Source of the DNA: a virus
Direction: 5' to 3' (one strand)
Length of the DNA: 24,746 nt
Virus record (IMG/VR): IMGVR_UViG_3300036823_000231
Coordinates: 1-24,746 of that record
The notes beneath the pieces are model-generated. The model had not been told where the DNA came from and searched no databases. It worked only from the letters and a program-made list of their open reading frames with translations. Shown in pieces: positions 104-24,746 of this stretch; position 1 is the stretch's first letter; every line of letters starts with the position of its first letter. Both the position numbers and the translations under genes were made by a program.

Positions 104-1057
104 TTAAGGTTTGATGGTTGCTTCAATGTGGGCTTGTTCGTCAGCCGTCAGACCGAAATGATCGTAGAGTTCGTTATCCAGCCATGGCCGGGTGAAATCC
201 ATCTTTGGGACCCAGGCGAATTTTTCTTTTGACAAATGTTGTGTGACTTTTCGAAGACCAAGCAAAAATCGAGCAAATTTAGTTTTCAAATAGCCTGTGC
301 AGTTTCGAGCTTCATCTTCTAAATCGGTCGCCATTACAACAAGATACGTTTGAAGGCAAACATGACTTGGTGGAATAGTGTCGATGATTGTAAGCACCCG
401 TTTCTTTCCGTCGAGATCAATGCGGTTGGCTGCGCCATCAGCATTTGAGCAAATGGTCTTCCATTGTGGTATCATTTGCTCGCCAGTCGTCACGTATTTT
501 CGATCAATATAAACAAGACCATTCTTTGTTAAACATGGCAGTGTGGTTGCACTCTGTTCCGTAAAACTCCGAAAATTTGTTCGCATCCCGAATGGGACAC
601 CCCCAGATACGCTGCTGTCCATGAATATCGTATGTTGTGATAGCACTTTCGATATTATCGTGTGAGCACACAGATCACGAATAACGATGTCATACTTTGA
701 CAGATTGACCGAATGGACCTGCCCATTTACATCGGTGAAACTACAGTCTCCAGCGTGTGTATTGGAAACGTGTAAGAAACAAACGCCTCCCTCGATCTCG
801 ACGGAGGGGAAGACATTCGAGGCAATTGGAAAGTCAACCATTTGTCTCACTTTCCTACTACTGACCATATGAATGCGAAAATCATCAAGTCCGCGCCCGG
901 CAGCATACCATCTCGCTGGTATTACCAACAAAGCCTCGCCACCATGGTCAAGTGCGCGCTCGACAAAATTTTGATAAATTGAGATTGGAGATGATCCAAA
1001 TGCTCCCTCAAAATCATGATAAGGTGGATTCCCCACAAACACGATCCGGTGTGACAT
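104..1057 (-). CDS. Catalytic/target-recognition half of an Eco57I-type N6-adenine DNA methylase (copy A)
   Basis: The protein (317 aa) begins only nine residues before the adenine-methylase motif IV, NPPY (residues 10-13). It continues with features typical of the C-terminal part of Eco57I-type enzymes: IPARWYAAGRG (46-56), VEIEGGVCFLH (86-96) and PFGMRTNF (155-162), then a divergent region likely to be the target-recognition domain, and an acidic helical tail ending in HIEATIK. The SAM-binding motif I is absent, so it cannot be a complete methylase alone; a candidate for the missing half lies at 8321-8893. Its ATG sits two bases after the stop of its upstream paralogue (1060-2022), with a weak AGG about five bases upstream, which suggests coupling. 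The two copies look about half identical by eye, best at both ends and worst around residues 145-260. Seen: motifs and truncation. Known: family motif order. Inferred: DNA adenine methylation, perhaps as protection against host restriction. Confidence 0.8.
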   Translation of the reverse strand: MSHRIVFVGNPPYHDFEGAFGSSPISIYQNFVERALDHGGEALLVIPARWYAAGRGLDDFRIHMVSSRKVRQMVDFPIASNVFPSVEIEGGVCFLHVSNTHAGDCSFTDVNGQVHSVNLSKYDIVIRDLCAHTIISKVLSQHTIFMDSSVSGGVPFGMRTNFRSFTEQSATTLPCLTKNGLVYIDRKYVTTGEQMIPQWKTICSNADGAANRIDLDGKKRVLTIIDTIPPSHVCLQTYLVVMATDLEDEARNCTGYLKTKFARFLLGLRKVTQHLSKEKFAWVPKMDFTRPWLDNELYDHFGLTADEQAHIEATIKP

Positions 1058-1078
1058 ACCTACCTGATAGATTTGATG
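1017..1078. repeat. 62-bp direct repeat, copy 1 (gene junction)
   Basis: Near-identical to 1982-2043, with one mismatch in 62 positions by eye. On the minus strand it spans the last codons and stop of the 1060-2022 gene, the intergenic bases, and the start codon through NPPY of the 104-1057 gene. The two genes are much more diverged elsewhere. Confidence 0.9.
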
Positions 1079-2022
1079 GTTGCTTCGATGTGGGATCGTT
1101 CGTCAGCGGTCAGATCGAAATGATCGTAGAGTTCTTGATCAGTCCATATCCGAGTAAAGTCCATCCTCGGCGCCCAACTCCATGCTTGAGGAGGCAAATC
1201 TTGAGATATAGCTCGCTGAGCGATCAGGTAACGAGGCAATTTTAATGCCAAATATGCGACGCAATTTTCTGCATCTTTTTGATTGTCGAAGGTTGCGACG
1301 ATAATGTATGTTTGCAGACATACATGTTTTGGAGGGAGCACTTTCGTGATGCTTAGAACAGTTCTCCTACCGTGTTTGTCGGCTCGTCCGCTTGCCGGAC
1401 CAGCCTTTGATGTAATGACTTTCCATTTATCGATGATATCGTGACGACGTGTCACAAACTCAGCCTCTACTTGTTTTATTCCGTCTTTGGTTTCGCAGCC
1501 ATAGGTGCTTGCGGAAGGCACAGGTGCGAAGTTTCTGAAAGATGTAATCAAAATTAGACCGAAAGCGTTTTGCGGGGTGACAGTTTGACTTAAAAATATT
1601 TCATGCTGTGCCACTACTTTGTTGATAATGCTCAATGCTTTTGGCTCGCGGACCAGAATATCGAATTTGGATAGGTCGGTATCGTGATGATTACCATCTC
1701 CATCGATCAATGTGCAATTACCATTATGAGCGTTTGATACGTGCAGGAAACATATTCCACTAGCGATATCAACGGTCGTAAATACTGAACGTGAATTTGG
1801 AAAATCGATGATCTGTTTTACTTTACCACCGGTAAGCAGACTGGCACGAAAATCATCCATTCCGCGTCCAGTCGCATACCAGCGCGCTGGTATCACAAAT
1901 AACCCTTCCTCTCCATGCACAAGAGCATGGTCAACAAAAAGATTGTAAATTCCTACTGCTGAGGAATCACCAGAATCTCGTTGATAAGGTGGATTCCCCA
2001 CAAACACGATCCGGTGTGACAT
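1060..2022 (-). CDS. Catalytic/target-recognition half of an Eco57I-type N6-adenine DNA methylase (copy B)
   Basis: This 320-aa paralogue of 104-1057 again starts MSHRIVFVG with NPPY at residues 10-13, IPARWYATGRG from about 44, a divergent middle, and the same kind of acidic C-terminus (MDFTR, ELYDHF, LTADE, HIEATIK). Motif I is missing. I chose the ATG at 2022 because it has the same AGG-TAG spacing as copy A, and because the frame upstream of it reads across what matches the 3' tail of a sister gene (repeat 1982-2043). The open frame does continue to an ATG at 2169, adding 49 residues with no recognisable domain; that ATG has AGAGG directly abutting it, which is poor spacing. The gene lies directly upstream of copy A with a two-base gap, so the pair is probably one operon. 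Function is inferred as an alternative specificity subunit of a split methylase. Confidence 0.78.
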   Translation of the reverse strand: MSHRIVFVGNPPYQRDSGDSSAVGIYNLFVDHALVHGEEGLFVIPARWYATGRGMDDFRASLLTGGKVKQIIDFPNSRSVFTTVDIASGICFLHVSNAHNGNCTLIDGDGNHHDTDLSKFDILVREPKALSIINKVVAQHEIFLSQTVTPQNAFGLILITSFRNFAPVPSASTYGCETKDGIKQVEAEFVTRRHDIIDKWKVITSKAGPASGRADKHGRRTVLSITKVLPPKHVCLQTYIIVATFDNQKDAENCVAYLALKLPRYLIAQRAISQDLPPQAWSWAPRMDFTRIWTDQELYDHFDLTADERSHIEATIKSIR

Positions 2023-2043
2023 ATCTACCTGATAGATTTGATG
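1982..2043. repeat. 62-bp direct repeat, copy 2
   Basis: Offset by 965 bases from copy 1. It again contains, in the same register, an ATCAAATCTATCAGGTAG stretch (which in copy 1 encodes a gene's last codons and stop) followed by ATGTCACACCGG and the NPPY codons. This looks like the 3' tail of a lost third paralogue placed before the 1060-2022 gene. Confidence 0.85.
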
Positions 2044-2354
2044 CAAGAGTTCATAAAAGCTGAGTGGCATAGCAGGTGCGCGAGAGTCGCCATACAATTT
2101 GGCAGGCATTTCCGCTTTACAGTGATCGCTATCATGCGGTAAACAGGGGGCGGTCAGTGAGGTTTGCATCCTCTTCGGGTCGGGCGGCTTCGGCTTCTCG
2201 GCCCGTTTTTATGTGTAAATTTTCCTAGTCGGACAGACTTCCCGATAATCATCCCACTCCTGGCGGTAGCGGTCTCCAGCACCATCATAAATGTGCTGCG
2301 GGTCGGGCGGCTTCTTCCTTCATGTCTCTCCACGTGCATGGTTGGCCGTTTTGC
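2023..2354. other. No clear gene: possible coding remnant with 16-bp direct repeats
   Basis: Between the two methylase loci there is no convincing gene. On the minus strand the frame of the 1060-2022 gene stays protein-like upstream to about 2320 but is broken by a TAA at 2209-2211. Two identical 16-bp direct repeats (2176-2191 and 2299-2314) each encode a KPPDP peptide in that frame. A 61-codon minus-strand frame (2154-2339) is rich in Arg and Ser and has no ribosome-binding site. The stretch is best read as a decayed gene or the remains of a lost methylase paralogue; weak. Confidence 0.35.
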
Positions 2355-2921
2355 TCACTTTTCAACGTGATAATTCAAGACAGGCTCCCCTGTCCATCGA
2401 TGATCCCAAAGAAACCAACTGTAGTTGTGCCGTGGTGCCACTGTCGTTCCAGGTATCCATCTTGGGCGACGTGTAAGGACTATTTTCCTTGCGAATGGTG
2501 GCTTATTGAACAGATCGATGCGGCCGACAGCGCTGTCATATTCATTGCGCAGCAACATCGCCACAATCCCATGCTTATTTTCCGTTAACTTCAACGCGTG
2601 ACGGATGAAAATCTCGGCACCGTTATACGGTGGGTTCGTCACGATGACAGAGGCTGGTTCTCCGGATTTCAGGAAATCACAGATGCCATTACTGTAACCG
2701 TAGTCGGCAATGTCGGTAGCGATCACAGTGTGATCTCGCCTGAGAACCTCAGCCATGCAGCCGGTGCCACAGGCTGGCTCCCAAATGCTGGATGCTGTTT
2801 TTAAATGTCTGGAAAGATAGGGTAATATAGCCGCGCTGACCCAGTCGGGAGTGGGGTAGTGGTCCAGATCCCGACGCACGAAACTAGGTGAACCTAGCAT
2901 CGTGCTGTCGGTCGAAATCAA
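2355..2921 (-). CDS. Phage N6-adenine DNA methyltransferase
   Basis: A complete small adenine methyltransferase of up to 188 aa. The visible motifs, in order, are motif X-like YPTPDW (22-27), motif I EPACGTG (48-54) for SAM binding, an acidic motif II residue at D70, and catalytic motif IV TNPPY (95-99). The order X-I-IV with no separate recognition domain is usual for compact phage enzymes. The first possible start is a TTG at 2921 that overlaps the stop of the upstream gene (TTGA), implying translational coupling. An ATG at 2900 is the alternative; it lies inside a nested hairpin (2876-2905: two 6-bp stems separated by two mismatched bases). Neither start has a good Shine-Dalgarno. The likely role is marking phage DNA or evading restriction. 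Function is well supported by motifs; the recognition sequence cannot be read from the protein. Confidence 0.85.
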   Translation of the reverse strand: MISTDSTMLGSPSFVRRDLDHYPTPDWVSAAILPYLSRHLKTASSIWEPACGTGCMAEVLRRDHTVIATDIADYGYSNGICDFLKSGEPASVIVTNPPYNGAEIFIRHALKLTENKHGIVAMLLRNEYDSAVGRIDLFNKPPFARKIVLTRRPRWIPGTTVAPRHNYSWFLWDHRWTGEPVLNYHVEK

Positions 2922-3208
2922 GCGGCGATATGGTGGTGCGGGGCCACGGCCTCGACAGGGGGGGCAGCGGGTTGCTCCCCCTCTGGCTCCAACGGAGCCC
3001 GACGAGCGATGTCAGAGAGCACGTTGATGAGCGTCCAGCTACCAGCCACGAGATAGTCGCGAATCTCGGTGGCATCGAGCGCGTCGGAATCGGCAAACCA
3101 TGCAACAATCAGCTTGTCCAGGCTGAGCTGGGCTTCATGTGACTTCGCCAATTTGCTTGATGGGAATTGTTGCCCATCGGATGTTTTGAAATACGTTACG
3201 CGTTGCAT
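2918..3208 (-). CDS. Small hypothetical protein (96 aa)
   Basis: An unrecognised protein starting MQRVTYFKTSDGQQF. It has a predicted helical centre (KLAKSHEAQLSLDKLI) and a low-complexity Pro/Ala/Glu tail ending in a short His run. Such N-termini, with a beta-strand followed by a phrase like 'FxTSDGxxF', occur in small phage proteins of unknown role. A GGGA lies seven bases before the ATG. A perfect 14-bp hairpin (3219-3260) lies just upstream of that ribosome-binding site. Its stop overlaps the TTG of the downstream methyltransferase. It is probably co-transcribed with the methylases. Confidence 0.6.
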   Translation of the reverse strand: MQRVTYFKTSDGQQFPSSKLAKSHEAQLSLDKLIVAWFADSDALDATEIRDYLVAGSWTLINVLSDIARRAPLEPEGEQPAAPPVEAVAPHHHIAA

Positions 3209-3218
3209 GTGTAAATCC

Positions 3219-3260
3219 CATGTTTAGAGCGGCCCAAATGGTGTGACCGCTCTAAACATG
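3219..3260. promoter_or_regulatory. Perfect 14-bp inverted repeat in the intergenic gap
   Basis: The arms CATGTTTAGAGCGG (3219-3232) and CCGCTCTAAACATG (3247-3260) enclose a 14-base loop. It lies between two minus-strand genes, ending ten bases before the start codon at 3208. There is no T-tract on either side, so a classical intrinsic terminator is unlikely. An operator, an RNA-processing hairpin or a translation-modulating leader are the options. Confidence 0.7.
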
Positions 3261-3288
3261 TAGCTAGCTGCAAACGATGTTGCCAGCA

Positions 3289-4251
3289 TTAGTTTTCATC
3301 TTCTTCTGTTGGCACCAGCATGTCCAACGTGGCAGGTGGTTTTGGTGGAGTGCTCTTCGGTTTCTGGTCGATTCCAACAGCTTTGTCATAACAGGTGACC
3401 ATCAGATCGCGCCAGAAAGTCTGGTCTTTATCGAGCTCGATCAGAGAATCATCCTTGATGACGTCACGTAAGGCTTCCCGGAGGGCCTCACCACCGATCC
3501 TGGCTTCGAGCAGAGGGAGTGAGCGGGTAACAGGGGGTAACCCCTCCAGACGCTCCTGGAAGCTGCGTGAGGCAGCTTCCTTGGTGTAGAAGGCACGTTC
3601 GCCTTCCGCGTTACGGCGCTTGAAAATGCTGCCTAGTTTGATCAAACGATGCACAGCGGTGGTAGCCTTCGCCTTCGCCGCCAGCTGTGCCGGCGGCGTC
3701 CATTGGTCGTAACCGTCGCGGTATACCTTATCAACGAGCATATCCACGGTGATGCCGGGATTGGCGTCAATCACGTCCAGGACGGTGTCCAGGGGGACGC
3801 GCTTGATAGACCAGTTAATGGTCGTGTCGGTGCTCTGACGGGCTTCCTGCGGGCTCCTTACGCCATCCCAGGGCTTACTACAGAGGGTGAGGCCGAGCCT
3901 GCGGGCTTCGATCGTGATCTGGTCAAAGGCACTCTTCCGTTCGCGTAGCTCGTGACCCTCGGAAGTCAGGGGGGCCACCCCATCATAGCGCATGCCACGC
4001 AGGCACTCTTCTCCAGTGATCCAGAAGACGATCGGCTTCCAGCTGTTGTGCTCGATGCTCAGCTTGGTCTGCTCCGACACGCTGCCACTGAAGCCATTGA
4101 TGCCAACTGCGTCAGGCAGTGGCCCACGTGTCGAGAAGCCACCCTTCTGCCGGCGCCAGTAGGCTCGTGCCGAGTCCTTTAACGGATTATCGGGCTGATT
4201 TGGCTCGACGTCATATGGGTTGTTCCGCCAAGGTGCTGATTTTCCAGGCAT
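3289..4251 (-). CDS. Hypothetical protein with probable winged-helix domain (320 aa)
   Basis: First gene of the leftward unit and unrecognised overall. Residues about 152-224 read like a winged helix-turn-helix: helix (PLDTVLDVIDANPG), second helix (TVDMLVDKVYRDG), recognition-type helix (AKATTAVHRLIKLGSI), then a basic wing (FKRRNAEGERAFYT). The N-terminal 150 residues contain WKPIVFWITGEE and no known motif. The C-terminus is Pro/Lys-rich and acidic at the very end. The start is supported by GGGAG ten bases before the ATG. The mirrored promoter at 4356-4383 would transcribe it with a leader of about 100 nt. Position and a DNA-binding domain suggest an early regulator or replication-associated protein; this is inference. 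Confidence 0.65.
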   Translation of the reverse strand: MPGKSAPWRNNPYDVEPNQPDNPLKDSARAYWRRQKGGFSTRGPLPDAVGINGFSGSVSEQTKLSIEHNSWKPIVFWITGEECLRGMRYDGVAPLTSEGHELRERKSAFDQITIEARRLGLTLCSKPWDGVRSPQEARQSTDTTINWSIKRVPLDTVLDVIDANPGITVDMLVDKVYRDGYDQWTPPAQLAAKAKATTAVHRLIKLGSIFKRRNAEGERAFYTKEAASRSFQERLEGLPPVTRSLPLLEARIGGEALREALRDVIKDDSLIELDKDQTFWRDLMVTCYDKAVGIDQKPKSTPPKPPATLDMLVPTEEDEN

Positions 4252-4272
4252 TTTCGCGATTCTCCCGACCAG

Positions 4273-4290
4273 AATTGAACATAATTGAAC
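4273..4290. promoter_or_regulatory. Tandem AATTGAAC direct repeats in the leader of the leftward unit
   Basis: Two AATTGAAC copies (4273-4280 and 4283-4290) lie ten bases apart, one helical turn. They sit between the predicted leftward start of transcription (about 4349) and the ATG at 4251. The spacing would suit a protein binding one DNA face, but the motif is short. Confidence 0.3.
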
Positions 4291-4355
4291 GTTTTCAATG
4301 GGTTAGCATCTCCCTAAGAAGACCGACCGTGTGCCAGTTTGAAACTACCATACCC

Positions 4356-4383
4356 ATGCTAAGTTATAGTTCTTATGTGTCAA
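4356..4383 (-). promoter_or_regulatory. Leftward promoter in the left arm (TTGACA-16-TAGCAT)
   Basis: On the minus strand TTGACA (4383-4378) matches the sigma70 -35 consensus perfectly. A 16-base spacer leads to TAGCAT (4361-4356), four of six matches to the -10. Transcription would begin near 4349 and read the 4251-to-104 block. The identical element occurs in the other arm. Confidence 0.6.
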
Positions 4384-4405
4384 AAGCTGAGATTCGTAAC
4401 CAAAA

Positions 4406-4427
4406 ATGGCACATTAGTATGTGCCAT
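4406..4427. promoter_or_regulatory. 22-bp palindromic operator-like site, left arm
   Basis: ATGGCACAT and ATGTGCCAT flank a four-base TAGT centre. The site lies upstream of the -35 of the leftward promoter, centred near -67. That position is more typical of an activator or a looping repressor than of direct promoter occlusion. Confidence 0.55.
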
Positions 4428-4582
4428 GAGACACATTGCTTGAGGGTCGGGGGATTTACGCCATCTCCCCCTGTCGTCTCAGGGTATTAGACAGAATCTC
4501 AACTCTAAGACATAACTAAAATAACTTATCCGTCAAATGACGTAAATCCCCCGACCTAAATTAACATCAAGCAATGTGTCTC

Positions 4583-4604
4583 ATGGCACATACTAATGTG
4601 CCAT
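4583..4604. promoter_or_regulatory. 22-bp palindromic operator-like site, right arm
   Basis: Mirror copy of the left-arm palindrome. The two sites are about 177 bp centre to centre, so one dimeric regulator could bind both and loop the intervening DNA. The Rha-like regulator (4996) and the winged-helix protein (3289-4251) are the nearest candidates; this is inference. Confidence 0.55.
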
Positions 4605-4626
4605 TTTTGGTTACGAATCTCAGCTT

Positions 4627-4654
4627 TTGACACATAAGAACTATAACTTAGCAT
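4627..4654 (+). promoter_or_regulatory. Rightward promoter in the right arm (TTGACA-16-TAGCAT)
   Basis: TTGACA at 4627-4632, 16-base spacer, TAGCAT at 4649-4654, predicted start near 4661. It reads towards the Rha-like gene at 4996, but an intrinsic terminator (4823-4873) intervenes. The primary product could therefore be a short RNA of about 210 nt, or a leader subject to attenuation or antitermination. Confidence 0.6.
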
Positions 4655-4770
4655 GGGTATGGTAGTTTGAAACCGGCACACGGTCGGTCTTCTTATGCGA
4701 CCGCTAACCCATTGATTTATTCTGCAAGTCGTTGATATCACTACATTTTTTGGTCGGGAAGTTTTTGTCG

Positions 4771-4786
4771 CGAATCCCGGGATTCG
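4771..4786. promoter_or_regulatory. 16-bp perfect palindrome
   Basis: CGAATCCCGGGATTCG is fully self-complementary with no loop. It lies in the rightward leader between the promoter and the terminator, and is most simply read as a protein-binding site. Confidence 0.5.
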
Positions 4787-4822
4787 ATTCTAGTGCTCAG
4801 GATGTCCTGACCACATGGTCAA

Positions 4823-4873
4823 GCGAGCTCGAATTTTTGGCGGATTTCAGCCAAAAATTCGAGCTCGCTTTTT
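4823..4873 (+). terminator. Intrinsic terminator or attenuator upstream of the Rha-like gene
   Basis: A perfect 19-bp stem (4823-4841 with 4850-4868) with an 8-base loop is followed immediately by TTTTT on the plus strand. It stands about 120 bases upstream of the gene start and downstream of the mirrored promoter, so it can cut transcription before the gene. It is preceded by TGACCA-CA-TGGTCA (4807-4820), another dyad. Confidence 0.8.
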
Positions 4874-4909
4874 GCCTTGCGCCGGATTCGAGATCGAATG
4901 TAGGGTTGG

Positions 4910-4940
4910 GGAGCAGGGACACGTGGTGTGTCCCTGCTCC
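4910..4940. promoter_or_regulatory. 13-bp perfect hairpin in the leader
   Basis: GGAGCAGGGACAC (4910-4922) pairs with GTGTCCCTGCTCC (4928-4940) across a 5-base loop. No T-tract follows. Directly downstream, TGACCA-G-TGGTC (4942-4953) repeats the dyad seen before the terminator. Together these make a highly structured leader. Confidence 0.6.
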
Positions 4941-4978
4941 GTGACCAGTGGTCGCCAGACCCCTGGTCAGCAACCTCT

Positions 4979-4994
4979 AGACAGGAGCGTGTCT
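4979..4994 (+). promoter_or_regulatory. Shine-Dalgarno presented in a small hairpin loop
   Basis: AGACA (4979-4983) and TGTCT (4990-4994) form a 5-bp stem ending one base before the ATG at 4996. AGGAG, the ribosome-binding site, lies at the stem-loop junction (4983-4987). This sets the start of the Rha-like gene and may modulate its translation. Confidence 0.45.
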
Positions 4995-4995
4995 A

Positions 4996-5904
4996 ATGGC
5001 TATCGACAGACTATACGAATTAGTGGAGGCATCCAAGAGTCCTCGAACGGAGGGCATGCCCCTGTTCGAGGGTGTCGGTGAACTGTGGGTCAACACGCGC
5101 GATCTGGCGAAGAAGTTCAATCGAAAGCATGTTGCTGTGCTTCGTGACGTAGGGGTGCTTCAATCGCACCATGAAGGTATTGTCGCTGAAGTGGCGGATA
5201 CGCCATACGACGGACCCGTTGATCGGTTTCGTATTCGTTCTAGGATCTACCAGGACTCTCAGAATAGGGCGAAATCCAGTTACGACCTCAATTTTGACGC
5301 CGCTTTCGAGCTGGTGATGCCGTGGCGTGGTAAATATGCCGAAGCGTTTCGCGCGGCATTCTTAGAAATGTTTAAGAATCGTCGGGCTGACGTCGGACTG
5401 TTTCAGTATGGCGGTGCGCCGAAGGACGGTCCTGGACAGGATCGCTGGAAGCCGCGTAAGCGTCCGAACCCATTCGACGTGCCCGGTGCGGTGGGTGATA
5501 TCCCTTACGACGCCAATCACCAAGAGCTCTATCGGTCGCCGCAGCGCATCATGCTGCCGCTTGAGGATGCCGTATTAGAGGCTGAGATTCAGAAAACCTG
5601 CCGTGGCAGATCGCGTGACCGGAATGGGAATCTCCCGAAAGGGGTTGAGCAAAGCCAGGAATATTTACTCATGGCTGGCTGGATGCGTGTTATTGCATGG
5701 GTTAACAAGTACAAGGACGAGGAATATTGGCATGCTATACGCAACGATATAGATTTAGGGCGGCCTCGGCGTGATTGGATCGCTTATTATGACACGGATG
5801 GGTATCACCCAGACGCCTACACGGATGCAAGTGGCCAGCTAGTTCTGCCACCGAAGTATACGATTCCCATCGCAGGCGATGAGCCCCTCCTGAAACTTAG
5901 TTAG
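4996..5904 (+). CDS. Rha-family phage regulatory protein
   Basis: The N-terminal part resembles the phage Rha regulator domain (pRha family). It has a VNTRDLAKKF helix-turn-helix-like stretch (32-41) and KHVAVLRDV (44-52), which corresponds to the family's 'H-NVLRDI' phrase. These are followed by YQDSQNRAKSSYDLNFDAAF (85-104), matching the 'Y-x-NSQNKxxPxYxMTRDGF' phrase, and by an amphipathic helix (KYAEAFRAAFLEMFKNR) matching its end. Residues 140-302 are an unrelated extension with no motif I recognise. The start has AGGAG eight bases upstream. The gene is alone on its strand, preceded by a structured leader with a terminator and followed by a bidirectional hairpin. It probably controls the phage developmental switch; its DNA target is unknown. 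Family call fairly firm; the extended C-terminus is unusual. Confidence 0.75.
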   Translation: MAIDRLYELVEASKSPRTEGMPLFEGVGELWVNTRDLAKKFNRKHVAVLRDVGVLQSHHEGIVAEVADTPYDGPVDRFRIRSRIYQDSQNRAKSSYDLNFDAAFELVMPWRGKYAEAFRAAFLEMFKNRRADVGLFQYGGAPKDGPGQDRWKPRKRPNPFDVPGAVGDIPYDANHQELYRSPQRIMLPLEDAVLEAEIQKTCRGRSRDRNGNLPKGVEQSQEYLLMAGWMRVIAWVNKYKDEEYWHAIRNDIDLGRPRRDWIAYYDTDGYHPDAYTDASGQLVLPPKYTIPIAGDEPLLKLS

Positions 5905-5910
5905 TCAAAC

Positions 5911-5944
5911 CAACGCAGTCGGAGTCGTGACTCCGACTGCGTTG
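5911..5944. terminator. Bidirectional hairpin between convergent genes
   Basis: A perfect 16-bp inverted repeat (5911-5926 with 5929-5944) lies between the stop of the Rha-like gene and the stop of the leftward glycosidase. The position fits a shared terminator, although neither flank has a strong U-tract. Confidence 0.65.
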
Positions 5945-5952
5945 CAAGATCG

Positions 5953-7716
5953 TCAACTTCTTGGCGCGGTATAGGTGATGGTCAATGAAAATGATGAACC
6001 ATCATTTTCTGGCAGCGTAGATACGGGCAAACTCACTCCAGTCAGCCAAATTGTGTACCAACCGCTTATCGTGGTCAGAGTATCGATTGTGGTGGAAGTC
6101 CCCCCTGCCAACAACGAGCCATTGCAAATCGGATTTTGATTCGGATCGGTGATCTGCCAGACGATCTGACTTTGGCCGGTCCAGCCGGTCTGATCCACGA
6201 TCAGGCTCGCCTTGAGCGGACTCTTGGCCGCGACCCAGATCCTACCGACCTGTTGTTTCAGGTTCTTGGCCTGCGGGATGTCGAGATCATAGGCACCGAA
6301 GAAGGTCTGGCTCGTGGGGTTGGTCGGCACCACGACTTTGACATCAAGCCCAGCCCGGCTCCAGCAGGAGTATCCCCGCCCATTGGCACCCGGTGGAACC
6401 CAGATCGTCACCCGGCCGCTCGCATCGGTCCAATAGTCCTGATCGTTATGGCCTGTATAGTCATGTATCTGCACAAACGGACCAAACCCGGTCTGCACGG
6501 TCACGATGTGCCAGTTTGGGTTCCAGACATCATTGTTGAGGGCCACCAAAAGGTTTGGATAGCCGGTGCGCTCATAGACGTAGACCTTGGCATCCCCGTA
6601 ACGCACGGTGGTGCCACCGTTGGCTAGACAGTTGTGAATCCAGCACAGATTGTCGATCGCCGGTTGCAGGCCATAGCAGGCCGGCTCCGGTAGATAATCG
6701 CGGACATAAATCTGTGGAAAGCCTTCACAAGTCAGCAACAGGGCGTAGCCAAGTTCTTTGTTGTTGACGACGGTGGCGAAGCCATTGGTATCGGAATCCA
6801 TCGATTCCACGAAGGTCACCGACTTCATTGGATCGATCGCCATCATGCCGCGACCGGTCATCCAATTCATCTGGTAGTTATCGTTACCAGCATCGTTACA
6901 CATCGGCATGATGACATTGTAATGCAAATCAAAGTCGGACGCTGATGACAAGCGATCAACTTGATTGACCCACCACTCAGTATCGTTGCGATTGCCGCTG
7001 GCATATTCACCGAAATAGAACTTGCCATTCATGGCCTTGCTGGTCATGAATGCTTTCATGAACTCAACAGCGATGCCCTTCATGTCATCAAGACGGGCGC
7101 CTTGGGCATCGGTGGTGCGGAACAACCAATCGTTTTGCGCGATCAAGCCATCCCAGACGTAGTTTTTCGGCAGCGCGTTGACTGGGCAAAGTTCATCACC
7201 AAACGAGAAATCATCGGGCGAATCGGGCACCGGGTCTTCCGGCACGCGTGGCGGATCGCCACGAAAGCATGACGGGTGCTTTGGGAACCGACCGTTTTTG
7301 GTTTTGCCATCGGCGCCCAGATAGGCGTAGGTGCCATTATGGCCGCCCATCAGTTGGTGCAGCACGATATCGAGATGCACGTGCAATCCGTTAGCGTGAC
7401 AGATTGCGATCGCCCGACGCAATTGCTCGGCTGAGCCAAATCGCGTTTCGGCCGCGCCGCTGTACATTTTCGAACCGATGTCATAGTCACCGGTCGGGCC
7501 GTAGCCGTCACCGGTCCTGAAATCGCCTGACTGGGTCTTCATAGGATTCGGAAACAGAACATCAGTGATGCCGACCGAGGCCCAGTGTGCGGCCAGCATG
7601 CTGATCCGATCATACCACCAATATTCAGACGAATGGTCGTCGGTTGGTCCTGGAACTGAGAGTGATGGACCGCGTCGATAATTCGCCCACATCATAATAC
7701 GTGAATTGTTTGCCAT
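5953..7716 (-). CDS. GH13 alpha-amylase-family glycoside hydrolase
   Basis: A 587-aa protein with a (beta/alpha)8 GH13 catalytic domain followed by beta-rich C-terminal domains. Visible motifs (numbering from the ATG at 7716): GPTGDYDIGSK (74-84), region I DIVLHQ (D116), region II ARLDDMKG with nucleophile D210, region III FGEYASG with acid/base E237, and region IV FVESMDSD with D307. The catalytic triad is present, but the usual His residues of region I (NH) and region IV (NHD) read HQ and SMD, so substrate or mechanism may differ from classic amylases. Residues from about 463 form an extra beta-sandwich-like module. There is no signal peptide. The ATG at 7716 is chosen because AGGAG lies five bases upstream; a GTG at 7737 has no such site. 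It is a lone leftward gene between a regulator and terminase genes, like a moron. It could degrade host storage or surface alpha-glucan. Confidence 0.85.
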   Translation of the reverse strand: MANNSRIMMWANYRRGPSLSVPGPTDDHSSEYWWYDRISMLAAHWASVGITDVLFPNPMKTQSGDFRTGDGYGPTGDYDIGSKMYSGAAETRFGSAEQLRRAIAICHANGLHVHLDIVLHQLMGGHNGTYAYLGADGKTKNGRFPKHPSCFRGDPPRVPEDPVPDSPDDFSFGDELCPVNALPKNYVWDGLIAQNDWLFRTTDAQGARLDDMKGIAVEFMKAFMTSKAMNGKFYFGEYASGNRNDTEWWVNQVDRLSSASDFDLHYNVIMPMCNDAGNDNYQMNWMTGRGMMAIDPMKSVTFVESMDSDTNGFATVVNNKELGYALLLTCEGFPQIYVRDYLPEPACYGLQPAIDNLCWIHNCLANGGTTVRYGDAKVYVYERTGYPNLLVALNNDVWNPNWHIVTVQTGFGPFVQIHDYTGHNDQDYWTDASGRVTIWVPPGANGRGYSCWSRAGLDVKVVVPTNPTSQTFFGAYDLDIPQAKNLKQQVGRIWVAAKSPLKASLIVDQTGWTGQSQIVWQITDPNQNPICNGSLLAGGTSTTIDTLTTISGWYTIWLTGVSLPVSTLPENDGSSFSLTITYTAPRS

Positions 7717-7799
7717 TCGGTCTCCTGGTGGATTCACTTAGAATGTTGCTGTTCCCCCTGACCATAGACTAAAGCAGGCGGTTTCTCGCGGAGCCACAA

Positions 7800-8324
7800 A
7801 TGAGCGACCATGAATTTTTCCAAATTCCGCACAACCCACGCGATGCCACACGTAAAGATCCGACTTACAGCGTAGATCATTGCCTCATGGCCAAGCGCAT
7901 GGCGCTGCTTGGGTTGAAGGATGCTGAGCTGGCGAAGGTGTTCGGGATCTCGCTGAACCGTTTTTTTGAGTGGCAGATGGACCACCCAGAGCTCGCCAGC
8001 GCCGTCGCGACTGGCCGGGACATAGCCGACAGTCGCGTTGCCGAAGCGCTTTACAAGCGCGCTACAGGCTACCAGCAGGCTGCTGTGAAAGTGCTCAAGA
8101 TCAAGACCACCGATGGCGAAGAGGTCGTTGATCACAGCTATGTTGAGGAAGTCCCCCCTGACCCCGCCGCTGCTAAGTTCTGGCTGACGGCCCGCCGTCC
8201 AGACCTGTGGCGCGACCAGACTCATAGCAATCTATCAGGATCAGTTGAGGTGACGGGGTCTGGAATTTCGGGCCTGTTGCAAGCGGCACGCGCCGCCGCA
8301 GCCAAGCCCGAGCTTGATAGCTAG
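7800..8324 (+). CDS. Terminase small subunit-like DNA-packaging protein
   Basis: A 174-aa protein with a helix-turn-helix near the N-terminus (GLKDAELAKVFGISLNRFFE), then the phrase 'HPELxxAVxxGRDIADSRVAEALYKRATGY', a short beta section, and PPDPAAAKFWLTARRPDLWR. This arrangement is characteristic of small terminase subunits that recognise packaging sites in phages with DUF1073-type portals. GGAG lies six bases before the ATG. It is separated from terL (10208) by nearly 1.9 kb of genes on both strands, whereas the pair is usually adjacent. It overlaps the opposite-strand methylase half by four bases at its 3' end. Role inferred from family. Confidence 0.75.
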   Translation: MSDHEFFQIPHNPRDATRKDPTYSVDHCLMAKRMALLGLKDAELAKVFGISLNRFFEWQMDHPELASAVATGRDIADSRVAEALYKRATGYQQAAVKVLKIKTTDGEEVVDHSYVEEVPPDPAAAKFWLTARRPDLWRDQTHSNLSGSVEVTGSGISGLLQAARAAAAKPELDS

Positions 8325-8893
8325 CCGAGCGACACTACAACACCTAGCCAGGAATCCACAGGTTTGCCAGCCTTGATGGTTTCCAAGGTTGTGAGGCAAG
8401 CCGCAGCTCGATCCCCCTGTTCGTCGCTAGGGAGCATTAGAAACGGGGTCTCGTCTCTCGGTATAAATTTCAGGCCGTCGCCGTGGCGAATTTGCCATTC
8501 AACAGCAGCGGCAAAGGCTGCAATCATTGCCAGATCATCGGTACCTAGAAAGGCTAGGATGAGGCGCATGGCGTTTGCCCTGCAAGAGCTGACATTGTCT
8601 GTCTGGAGTTCAACGCCCCACACAGAGCCTATTGCAAGCCCGGCAATGGCCACCTTGGAGCGAATACCATCATCAAGCCCAGCGAATCTCCGGCGTAGAA
8701 TCTCGATAACGAAGATTCCGTCCCCACAACTGTTTTCAACCAAACAGGTTGCCGGGTCGCTCCAAACATCTGGATCTAGTAAATCAAGCATTTGATTGAC
8801 GGTGACGACAGGGGTAAAAATTTCCCCGTGTGATTTGGATCGTGCAGCGTCCGTCGTCTGCCGGAACTTAGGCATGATGTCGAATTCAAGCAT
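8321..8893 (-). CDS. SAM-binding half of an Eco57I-type N6-adenine DNA methylase
   Basis: A 190-aa protein carrying the N-terminal methylase motifs but no catalytic one: motif X region GEIFTP (23-28) followed by the helix VNQMLDLLD, motif I ENSCGDGIF (53-61), acidic motif II GVE (E95) with DNVSSCRANA, and motif III-like HGDGLKF (137-143). It ends about 47 residues after motif III without NPPY. NPPY is where the two proteins at 104-1057 and 1060-2022 begin, so the breakpoint is complementary. I chose the ATG at 8893 because AAGGA precedes it by ten bases; the frame continues upstream to 8947 through a perfect hairpin (8902-8959) that includes that ribosome-binding site. It converges on terS with a 4-bp overlap. 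It could instead be a decayed methylase, but there is no frameshift and no trace of the second half downstream. Confidence 0.78.
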   Translation of the reverse strand: MLEFDIMPKFRQTTDAARSKSHGEIFTPVVTVNQMLDLLDPDVWSDPATCLVENSCGDGIFVIEILRRRFAGLDDGIRSKVAIAGLAIGSVWGVELQTDNVSSCRANAMRLILAFLGTDDLAMIAAFAAAVEWQIRHGDGLKFIPRDETPFLMLPSDEQGDRAAACLTTLETIKAGKPVDSWLGVVVSLG

Positions 8894-8901
8894 ACTGAAA
8901 A

Positions 8902-8959
8902 TTTCCTTGCGGCATGTTTGCCTTTGGTATAACCCAAAGGCAAACATGCCGCAAGGAAA
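8902..8959. promoter_or_regulatory. 26-bp perfect inverted repeat with outward ribosome-binding sites
   Basis: The arms 8902-8927 and 8934-8959 are perfectly complementary around a 6-base TATAAC centre. On both strands the repeat ends in CCGCAAGGAAA, and on both strands an ATG follows, then GAATTCGA. The leftward ATG is the methylase half; the rightward ATG opens a 7-codon frame. The stem contains the Shine-Dalgarno on each strand, so folding would occlude it. Confidence 0.9.
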
Positions 8960-8993: not shown

Positions 8994-9303
8994 CCCACTA
9001 ATCAGGCCGACTCGTTGGTTGATGGCTTATAATCCGTGACCTATGAAGAACTTGACGTTGTCACTTACGTCATTAAACCAGGCTCAACCGTAGGTGCGCG
9101 AGCATTGTCCACTGATACCCATCGAGGCGAACGGGGGGTCGCTTTTAGGTTATCCTAGCACTGCTCGCGCACCGTGTGTATAGCAGAGGATAACGGAGCC
9201 GCCAAGCGACAATCTGAGGGGGAGCAACGTTATCTGTTAAACGTTGCTCCCCCTGGCGCCCTTGGTTTAAGGTCTACCATCGTCAGGAACGGAACGCCAC
9301 AAC
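8994..9303. other. Structured non-coding stretch
   Basis: No convincing gene. A TATAAT (9028-9033) occurs without a matching -35. Two inverted repeats dominate: GGTGCGCGAGCA (9093-9104) with its complement at 9162-9173 around a 57-base interior, and a 15-bp perfect hairpin (9217-9231 with 9240-9254) whose right arm includes a CCCCCTG heptamer. A 40-codon GTG frame (9036-9158) overlaps the first structure but lacks a ribosome-binding site. The stretch may encode a structured RNA or be the leader of the 9304 gene. Confidence 0.5.
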
Positions 9304-14904: not shown

Positions 14905-16791
14905 GTGACCACTGCAACAATTGCATCGATTCTGGCCGAACTTGCCGCGCTTAAAACAACGGTTGACACGACGATCACGCAGATTGCAGGTGATGTCAGC
15001 TCGCTGATTCAGGTTTCAACGCCGGTTGTGTTGACTGGTATGACGCTCTCGGGTCTCCAATCCATCAAAGCAGGATTGCCGGCTGGTACAGTCGTTGGAG
15101 GGATTGCGGTGACCGTGACAGGGGGGGCCTTCACCGGCACTCTTGTAACGCTCCCGAGCTCCAATTTTGTTATTAGCGGGAACAGTCTGGTGACGGCGGC
15201 ATCCCTTGCCGCAGGCACCTACGTTGTGATGGTCACAGCGACGCAGGCCGGAGCCACGAATTCCCCCCTGTCACAAAGCTTTACGGTTTCCGTTAGCGCG
15301 CCAGCCGAATCCGTGGATGGCACGAGCATTCCCGTTGGATCAGCCAACGTCATCGTGGATGCCGCCGGTAACACCTGGGGTGTCAACGCCGCTGGACAGG
15401 TCGTGCGTAATGGCACCGTTGATACGGCAACGGCCAGCGTCACCGAGCTCTATTACAAGGCTCACTTGGTCTATCAGGAGGCAGCTAACGCAAGCAACCT
15501 TGGAACGCCCGGCTGGTGGAGTTGGAGCGGTAACACATGGGTTGATGCGGCTAGCCCGCTGAGTGTGGTTGTAACGCCGCCACCGCCTGTTTCAACAGGC
15601 ACCGTGGCTGTTGATCTGACGAAGCCTCTCGGGAGCATCAGCCCATTTGTATGGGGCGTTGGCACTGAAGGGCTCGGTGATCCTGGTACCGATACGTTCT
15701 ATGCAGCGGCGAATGCGGGGTGGCAGGCTGCTTACAAGACGCAGAATTGGCGTTTGTTCCGGTTCAACACGGAAGGTGATCAACTCACGTGGTTTACCGG
15801 TGGCTCAACGCAGAGCACGAATATCCAAAATTTCGTAAAGTTCTGGAAGAACGTCACTTCGCCAACTGATACGACTGGAAATCGTTTTGTATTCACCGTT
15901 GGCTCGGACAAGAACGCTGGTACGCCCGCGCAGGCTGTCGCCATTGCCAAGTGGTTCAAATCCATTGGTCTGGAAATATTCTTTTGGGAATACTGGAATG
16001 AGCCAGGGGATAGCGAAGCGTCCACCTATTGCACCGGCTTCAATGCGCTATCGACCGCACTGAAAGCGTTCAACCCCTTGTACCAAGTCGGTGGACCGAC
16101 GACGGCTTGGAGTGATGGCTCATTTTATACAACTTTTTCCAAGTCTTGTAAGCCCGATTTCATTTCCTATCACATGTATCTGACGGGATCATATACAGAC
16201 GAGGCGTCACTCTATCAGGCGACGATTAAGCGGGCTGTAGGTGATGTTGCTTTTGTCCGTAATGTGTTTCCGACGTTGCCAATTTTTCTCGGCGAATGGA
16301 ATATTGATTACAATGGCACCGAATCAATGATGCAGACCATTGTCGGTGGCGTGTTCGCATCTCTGTATACGTATTCGTCGTTGACGGCTCCGAATGCGAA
16401 CGTGCAGATGGGAGCGGATTGGACGATCGGTCAGAATTCCAATTTCACATTCATCAATAATGATGGGACAAATCTACGGCCTCATGGCGCTGTACTGGCG
16501 GCGTTGGGTCGTAAGATGCTTGGCACGCGCGCGACGTTGTCTATCGGTTCTGCATTCCCACACCTCGTCGGAATGTCCAGCATGTCTGGAACGTCCTGGA
16601 CGGTGTGGTTAACGAATTATGACCTGTCAGCAGCTTACACTATTGATCTAACCGGCCTTCCAAGCGCTGGTTACACTTATTGGGAATGCAGTCCAGCGAA
16701 TCTGACAGGGACATCTTCGAGCAAGGCAGCAAGCACACTACCTGCTTTGACGATCCCAGCACGGTCTGTGGTTATTTTGTCGAGCAGCTAA
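14905..16791 (+). CDS. Multidomain clan-A glycoside hydrolase (GH39-like)
   Basis: A 628-aa protein with four parts. (1) A short coiled coil (1-35). (2) An Ig/cadherin-like beta domain (about 40-131) rich in Thr, Val and Gly. (3) A module at 140-220 containing GNTWGVNAAGQVVRNGTVDT and WWSWSGNTW, resembling linkers in bacterial glycosidases. (4) A (beta/alpha)8 hydrolase from about 235 with acid/base E366 in WEYWNEP and nucleophile E464 in FLGEWN, followed by a small beta domain. The Glu pair and the WNEP context point to clan GH-A. There is no signal peptide, and it starts at a GTG with GGAG ten bases upstream. It lies between portal and head-morphogenesis genes, an odd place for an enzyme, suggesting a virion-borne depolymerase. 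The substrate is unknown. Confidence 0.82.
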   Translation: MTTATIASILAELAALKTTVDTTITQIAGDVSSLIQVSTPVVLTGMTLSGLQSIKAGLPAGTVVGGIAVTVTGGAFTGTLVTLPSSNFVISGNSLVTAASLAAGTYVVMVTATQAGATNSPLSQSFTVSVSAPAESVDGTSIPVGSANVIVDAAGNTWGVNAAGQVVRNGTVDTATASVTELYYKAHLVYQEAANASNLGTPGWWSWSGNTWVDAASPLSVVVTPPPPVSTGTVAVDLTKPLGSISPFVWGVGTEGLGDPGTDTFYAAANAGWQAAYKTQNWRLFRFNTEGDQLTWFTGGSTQSTNIQNFVKFWKNVTSPTDTTGNRFVFTVGSDKNAGTPAQAVAIAKWFKSIGLEIFFWEYWNEPGDSEASTYCTGFNALSTALKAFNPLYQVGGPTTAWSDGSFYTTFSKSCKPDFISYHMYLTGSYTDEASLYQATIKRAVGDVAFVRNVFPTLPIFLGEWNIDYNGTESMMQTIVGGVFASLYTYSSLTAPNANVQMGADWTIGQNSNFTFINNDGTNLRPHGAVLAALGRKMLGTRATLSIGSAFPHLVGMSSMSGTSWTVWLTNYDLSAAYTIDLTGLPSAGYTYWECSPANLTGTSSSKAASTLPALTIPARSVVILSSS

Positions 16792-23939: not shown

Positions 23940-24746
23940 GTGTCGAATTTCCCACGATTTGTACCCGGTTCGGAACTATTTGCCGCTCAGTTAGACTTTG
24001 CCTTTGATACCAAGGCTGATCTCACACTTCTCGAAGGCACTTACGCCCCCCTGTCATCACCGGTTTTCTCCGGCAATCCGCAGGCACCGACTCCGAATTC
24101 CAATGATGTATCCAATGCGATCGCTACCACGGCTTACGTGCAGGAGTCCGTTGGCAACATCGTCGGGCCGACAGGCCCTATGGGTGCGACAGGTCCGACC
24201 GGATCAATTGGGCCGACTGGCCCTGGTGTCGGTTCAACTGGCCCAACTGGGCCTACGGGACCTACGGGGCCAACAAATGGGCCGACTGGTGCCTTGGGGC
24301 CAACAGGTCCGCAAGGTTTGCAGGGTATTCAGGGGCCAACCGGTCCGACAGGCACGCAGGGGCCAACAGGTCCGGGAACTGGTTCGACTGGGCCAACGGG
24401 ACCGACTGGTCCACAAGGCCCCGCAGCTGGCCCGACAGGCAGTATCGGACCAACCGGTCCGCAAGGGCCAACCGGCTCGCAAGGGCCAACTGGTCCACAG
24501 GGACCAACTGGTTCGCAAGGTGCGCTTGGTAGCGTGGGGCCAACCGGTCCTATTGGTCCTACAGGTCCTGGTGTGGGTGGTACAGGTCCGACAGGTCCCA
24601 CTGGGCCTGCGGGCGCTAACAGCGGTACTACTGGTCCTACAGGTCCCCAAGGGGCGCAGGGCATCCAAGGCAACACCGGTAATCAGGGGGCGGCAGGTCC
24701 GCAAGGGTCCACAGGTAATCAGGGGGCGATTGGTCCGACCGGCCCT
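23940..24746 (+). CDS. Collagen-like fibre protein, 3' end outside the window
   Basis: An open frame of 269 codons that does not end before the window does. The N-terminus (about residues 1-75) contains [19 protein letters not shown] and AIATTAYVQ, the usual anchor segment of tail-fibre-like proteins. From about residue 77 (nt 24168) it is almost pure Gly-X-Y, dominated by GPTGP, with occasional breaks ([19 protein letters not shown]). Such repeats form collagen-type triple helices in phage fibres. The start is the GTG at 23940, the first start after the preceding in-frame TGA. Placement after the capsid gene suggests a head or tail fibre that binds the host. Confidence 0.85.

Follow-up and report, generated by a model that had tools for sequence, protein, structure and literature searches.

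Here we describe a putative split DNA methyltransferase encoded in positions 1 to 24,746 of the IMG/VR virus record IMGVR_UViG_3300036823_000231 (hereafter the window, a linear 24,746-base fragment of a tailed phage with terminase, portal and capsid genes; anything beyond position 1 is unseen). One gene, D, carries the motifs of an S-adenosylmethionine (SAM)-binding half, and two genes, A and B, each begin at the NPPY motif. With a probability of about 0.68, these genes specify an N6-adenine methyltransferase of two subunits, an orphan enzyme descended from the split methylases of the DrdVI type, in which D+A and D+B would each be an active enzyme, giving two specificities. D would supply the SAM-binding half (strands beta1 to beta3 with motifs X, I and III), and A or B would supply the NPPY strand, the remaining catalytic half, a target-recognition domain (TRD) and a conserved C-terminal tail. 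A single SAM subunit shared by two site specificities is our best reading, and the methyl marks would most likely protect the phage DNA from restriction by the host; we infer the physical pairing in the phage, the adenine target, the two specificities and the anti-restriction role from sequence. The split itself is already known. What is new is the phage form, which has neither the nuclease/translocase nor the N-terminal half of the large methylase subunit (M2) and has one D for two NPPY halves.

The three genes are as follows; bit scores are from family hidden Markov models (HMMs) made in this analysis.

104..1057, minus strand: A, the second NPPY-first half, 317 amino acids, 50% identical to B; Pfam Eco57I from position 78; NPPY-half HMM 420 bits
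1060..2022, minus strand: B, NPPY-first catalytic and recognition half of the M2 C-terminal type, 320 amino acids; Pfam Eco57I from position 78; NPPY-half HMM 402 bits
8321..8893, minus strand: D, SAM-binding half of the M1 (small subunit) type, 190 amino acids, with motifs X, I, II and III and no NPPY; D-family HMM 163 bits

Complementary halves and their DrdVI-type relatives

A preliminary description made from the letters alone had proposed that D and the NPPY proteins break at complementary points, and this was borne out. D has motif X (GEIFTP), motif I (VENSCGDGIF) and the motif III-like HGDGL, at the coordinates first given, together with VWGVE; about 45 amino acids after HGDGL it stops, NPPY being absent. 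Its ATG at 8893 is preceded by the Shine-Dalgarno-like AAGGAA. D has no Pfam match; it matches phrog_21201 as well as phrog_11371, the latter in its C-terminal part. A and B open with NPPY (MSHRIVFVGNPPY) and hold the rest of an Eco57I-type enzyme without the motif I half, so that D has the N-side motifs and A and B everything from NPPY on. A profile search placed the breakpoint at the same point in both, the Pfam Eco57I match (PF07669) beginning at profile position 78 and covering 78-171 of 171 only (E 4e-10 for A and 1e-10 for B; 40.6 and 42 bits against a curated cut-off of 25.3). B also matches the PADLOC profile PDLC03375 MTase_II (348 amino acids; E 1e-23) from position 14 through its last position, an NPPY-first family listed without a named SAM-binding partner. 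A six-frame scan of the window with a model of the M2 N-terminal half (LN) gave no match outside D, and the lost half is not detectable elsewhere in the window. As a correction to the first description, all three genes, like a small methylase C described below, lie on the minus strand; D is about 6 kb away from A/B.

D and the NPPY half (NP) each served as queries to gather relatives from viral and bacterial genomes; the loci are numbered L followed by three digits. Bacterial relatives mostly form a three-gene operon of a small D, an LN-NP protein of about 530 amino acids and a helicase/GIY-YIG protein. In the pDrdVI operon, the small gene is a homologue of D and is among the sequences of the D-family HMM, and the C-terminal 330 amino acids of the large gene are homologous to A and B. 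The M1-2.DrdVI pair has been cloned and expressed in E. coli, where it methylates GCAGCC (PMC6430315); the family has been named "split methylase" (PMC10113651), and cloned M1-2.DrdVI and M1-M2.MaeIV place N6-methyladenine at one-strand sites (PMC6430315, PMC10113651). The earlier statement that Eco57I-type methylases are normally one chain thus needs correction: it fits M.TaqI, CamA and the Eco57I-type gamma class, which share fold and motifs with D plus A/B and are known as single chains, but two-chain N6-adenine methylases of the DrdVI type were already known. On pDrdVI (Deinococcus wulumuqiensis NEB 479) only one methylase operon is annotated, and RS18915 and RS18920 are probably M1 and M2 of DrdVI because they are the only methylase genes annotated there. 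GCAGCC contains a single A and its complement none; one methylated base and two methylase genes would therefore fit a single two-part enzyme.

The two subunits of this family differ at the SAM site. The first Gly of the GxG is Gly in 139 of the 141 D proteins parsed, and reading by eye shows Gly in the remaining two; the equivalent residue in the LN half of M2 is Lys in 107 of 108, and in the last one too when read by eye. NPPY is absent from D proteins unless they are fused to an NP half. M1 is thus expected to bind SAM, and the chemistry would fall to M2, whose SAM site would be blocked by Lys; this gives the DrdVI-type split methylases a testable mechanism. A and B have no LN, and therefore D appears to be the only SAM-binding candidate among the three phage proteins.

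Like DrdVI and MaeIV (Type IIG split restriction-modification systems), the window has two kinds of methylase gene, M1 resembling D and the C-terminal 330 amino acids of M2 resembling A/B. Unlike them, it lacks in all six frames the M2 N-terminal half with its Lys-type motif I and carries a single, unlinked D for two M2-type halves; the translocase/GIY-YIG nuclease gene is not among the open reading frames of the window, itself a fragment. Neither classical motif order describes the window: the gamma order (X-I-III-IV-TRD) belongs to one chain and here there are two, and the beta order (a single chain in which the SAM half follows the NPPY half) occurs only in fused relatives. M.AquI and M.EcoHK31I (PMC3404938) likewise spread one enzyme over two genes, but they belong to an unrelated 5-methylcytosine family and keep motif I and the catalytic motifs on one chain (I-VIII). 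No functional name for the pair of D and A/B was found in Pfam, PHROGs or NCBIfam; scanning viral contigs with single proteins found almost nothing, and 385 genomes from the class to which the Paracoccus locus L180 belongs, searched for closer relatives, gave three distant NP matches only. At L142:11015-14362 a helicase carries the LN half at its C-terminus and NP is a free NPPY-first protein, and the LN/NP boundary is therefore a natural break point.

Proposed pairing of D with the NPPY halves

Separate D and NP trees were built for 121 loci. The D tree groups window D with L098, L178, L015 and L248 (support.96), and the NP tree groups A and B with L096, L098, L015, L178 and L248 (support.89). 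The D and NP distance matrices are correlated (Mantel r.52, 0 of 500 permutations), and D and A/B share three of five nearest partners (L098, L178 and L248; family mean 0.76, chance probability 3e-4). Out of 219 D sequences, the one in L098 matches window D best. This 300-kb phage record has the order NP-NP-D, in which two NPPY-first genes stand in tandem and the GTG of D overlaps the stop of the second. A second short D at L098:3007-5179 lies beside a 590-amino-acid protein whose C-terminus is like the NP tail, without NPPY.

Fused relatives exist in both orders: D-NP in L030, L110 and L136, and NP-D in Aeromonas phages PX29 and Aeh1 and in L094. A Bibersteinia gene has an N-terminus like M1 and a C-terminus like M2 (PMC4996451). 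Window A and D both match phrog_11371 (Aeromonas phages PX29, Aeh1 and Ah1), a single chain of permuted order with the NPPY half first; the PX29 chain matches window A (E 6e-11), window D (E 1e-7) and the stand-alone NP and D of L172 and L147. An AlphaFold2 model of this relative, PX29, rather than of the window proteins, shows two packed halves with only the linker disordered (predicted local distance difference test 83.6, predicted template modelling score 0.84). In chain order it aligns with beta-class methylases (2zig Z 10.1, MboIIA Z 10.0, RsrI Z 9.1). Taken separately, the NP half matches M.TaqI over 97-411 (Z 9.1), and the D half matches BsaXI over 347-540 (Z 8.8) and M.EcoKI over 150-285 (Z 8.4). 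Z scores of 8-10 are moderate; almost every one of the best structural matches is a DNA methylase, and the matched ranges are complementary, which places the predicted split just before the NPPY strand. At L136:6839-8758 two separate frames after a D-NPPY fusion encode alternative C-terminal recognition pieces.

One D also accompanies several NPPY halves elsewhere. L098 has two tandem NPPY-first halves, L131 two plus one fused, and L172 at least four, with two more that begin GNIPF, for a single D; the tandem pair starting GNIPF instead of GNPPY lies within this one-D array at L172:11976-13667. Arrays in L156 and L161, made up of methylases with their own short N-half, likewise end in one D, and D may therefore do more than replace a missing half. 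At L161:3311-9817 one D follows five tandem methylases whose N-halves are near-identical and whose recognition parts differ. By the mirrored trees, the fusions in both orders, L098 and the cloned DrdVI M1-2, the split and the predicted pairing of D with A/B are well supported.

Competing explanations and significance

Several observations weigh against this pairing. D lies 6 kb off A/B, outside their operon. Phages commonly have D relatives but no NPPY half at all (20 of 20 records), and three such D proteins, those of L081, L085 and L092, fall inside the clade of window D. NPPY-first genes without a D in reach occur in L301-L305, L321, L140 and L203, and the 74-kb record of L096, the nearest NP relative, starts at the gene and holds no D. 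The G+C content of A/B is below that of D. In a model of the L030 D-NP fusion the NP half was spoiled because NP-only rows had been aligned on the D region, as they were in a second alignment; its matches were not used. It is accordingly conceivable, if improbable, that D and A/B do not pair at all, D being a solo SAM-binding protein and the partner of A/B being host-encoded or on unsequenced phage DNA beyond this fragment. The same solo relatives and the 6-kb gap would fit such a reading; the closest of the 219 D proteins, overlapping a tandem of NPPY-first genes, and the nearest partners common to D and A/B speak for pairing instead. The solo D-type proteins themselves (about 131-234 amino acids, motif I intact, no NPPY partner record-wide; L021, L023, L025, L040, L043, L060, L063 and others, 20 records) perhaps pair with a host M2. 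The lower G+C of A/B is usual for the family (mean difference -0.054, n=160), and a foreign origin of A/B on that ground was rejected.

As first proposed, the middle is where A and B diverge most, with an amino-acid identity of.32-.44 in alignment columns 101-225 against.70 at the start and.82 at the end. Identity at the three codon positions is.64/.71/.40, with NG86 nonsynonymous and synonymous distances of.43 and 2.2 (the latter saturated), and both genes are under purifying selection. Three further features lie in or next to the tandem.

1017..1078, minus strand: 62-nt direct repeat, A copy, spanning the B end, the A ribosome site and the first 13 codons of A; 98% identical to 1982-2043
1982..2043, minus strand: 62-nt direct repeat, B copy, spanning the B ribosome site and the first 13 codons of B; 98% identical to 1017-1078
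2023..2061, minus strand: candidate remnant of the lost M2 N-half (FYELLHQIYQVD), in frame upstream of B and aligning with the YAYELLH that precedes NPPY in full-length M2; weak

The repeat at 1017..1078 is likely the junction of the tandem, the B end meeting A upstream sequence at CATCAAA, and the tandem may have formed by the joining of two alleles of one locus. Such a structure would also suit a store of recognition cassettes, kept in tandem for recombination rather than for two specificities at once, in which a single copy is active, be it A, B or a third one past the edge of the contig. The near-identical repeat at both starts, the 81% DNA identity at the A/B ends and the arrays in other phages whose ends are constant and whose middles vary (L098, L131, L161) would fit a store. 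We nevertheless consider it unlikely, since both frames are intact and constrained, with the NPPY start behind a ribosome-site-like AGG, and A starts 2 nt from the B stop. Less probable still is independent decay, the alternative of the preliminary description, in which the genes would be functionless pieces of former full-length methylases. The candidate remnant upstream of B would be its trace; against it stand the purifying pattern between A and B, the similar codon-position pattern between window D and L098 D (.46/.59/.31), and the stand-alone NPPY-first halves found alongside D elsewhere. Another phage, L096, opens with the same MSHRIVFVGNPPYH, and the NPPY start is therefore conserved. 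Decay is thus poorly supported; as a candidate origin of the break, frameshift or decay was rejected, the N-half remnant being limited to the weak ELLH stretch.

If the two-subunit enzyme is real, exchanging NPPY/recognition subunits on a common SAM subunit would give a phage several methylation specificities cheaply. HsdM/HsdS is partly comparable, with the difference that here the catalytic motif rides on the swapped part. More tentatively, and with the odds somewhat against it, D and the NPPY halves may form a natural two-module system for combinatorial methylation, with several interchangeable catalytic/recognition subunits to one SAM-binding subunit, the free halves being fission/fusion intermediates between gamma-order and beta-order methylases. 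Permutation by duplication is the favoured model for DNA methylases (PMC3320104, PMC5944983); halves that are free, and fused both ways, as in this family, are the evidence that PMC3320104 asks for to accept a fission-fusion route, as required for a fission-fusion origin of circular permutation.

Other features of the window

Two further features lie on the minus strand.

2355-2921, minus strand: C, a small self-contained methylase, phrog_799
8902..8959, minus strand: 26-bp perfect inverted repeat directly upstream of D, its 3' arm containing the AAGGAA of D; RNA fold -50.8 kcal/mol, z -10.6

C has its own motif I and NPPY, and a recognition domain is apparently missing. The inverted repeat over the D ribosome site may control translation as a switch or serve as an operator. 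An Rfam scan gave 0 matches. More perfect inverted repeats lie between window genes at 3219-3260 and 9217-9254 (14 and 15 bp). The window also encodes an alpha-amylase-like protein (5953-7737), a glycosyl hydrolase 39-like protein (14905-16791) and a collagen-repeat protein (23940-24746).
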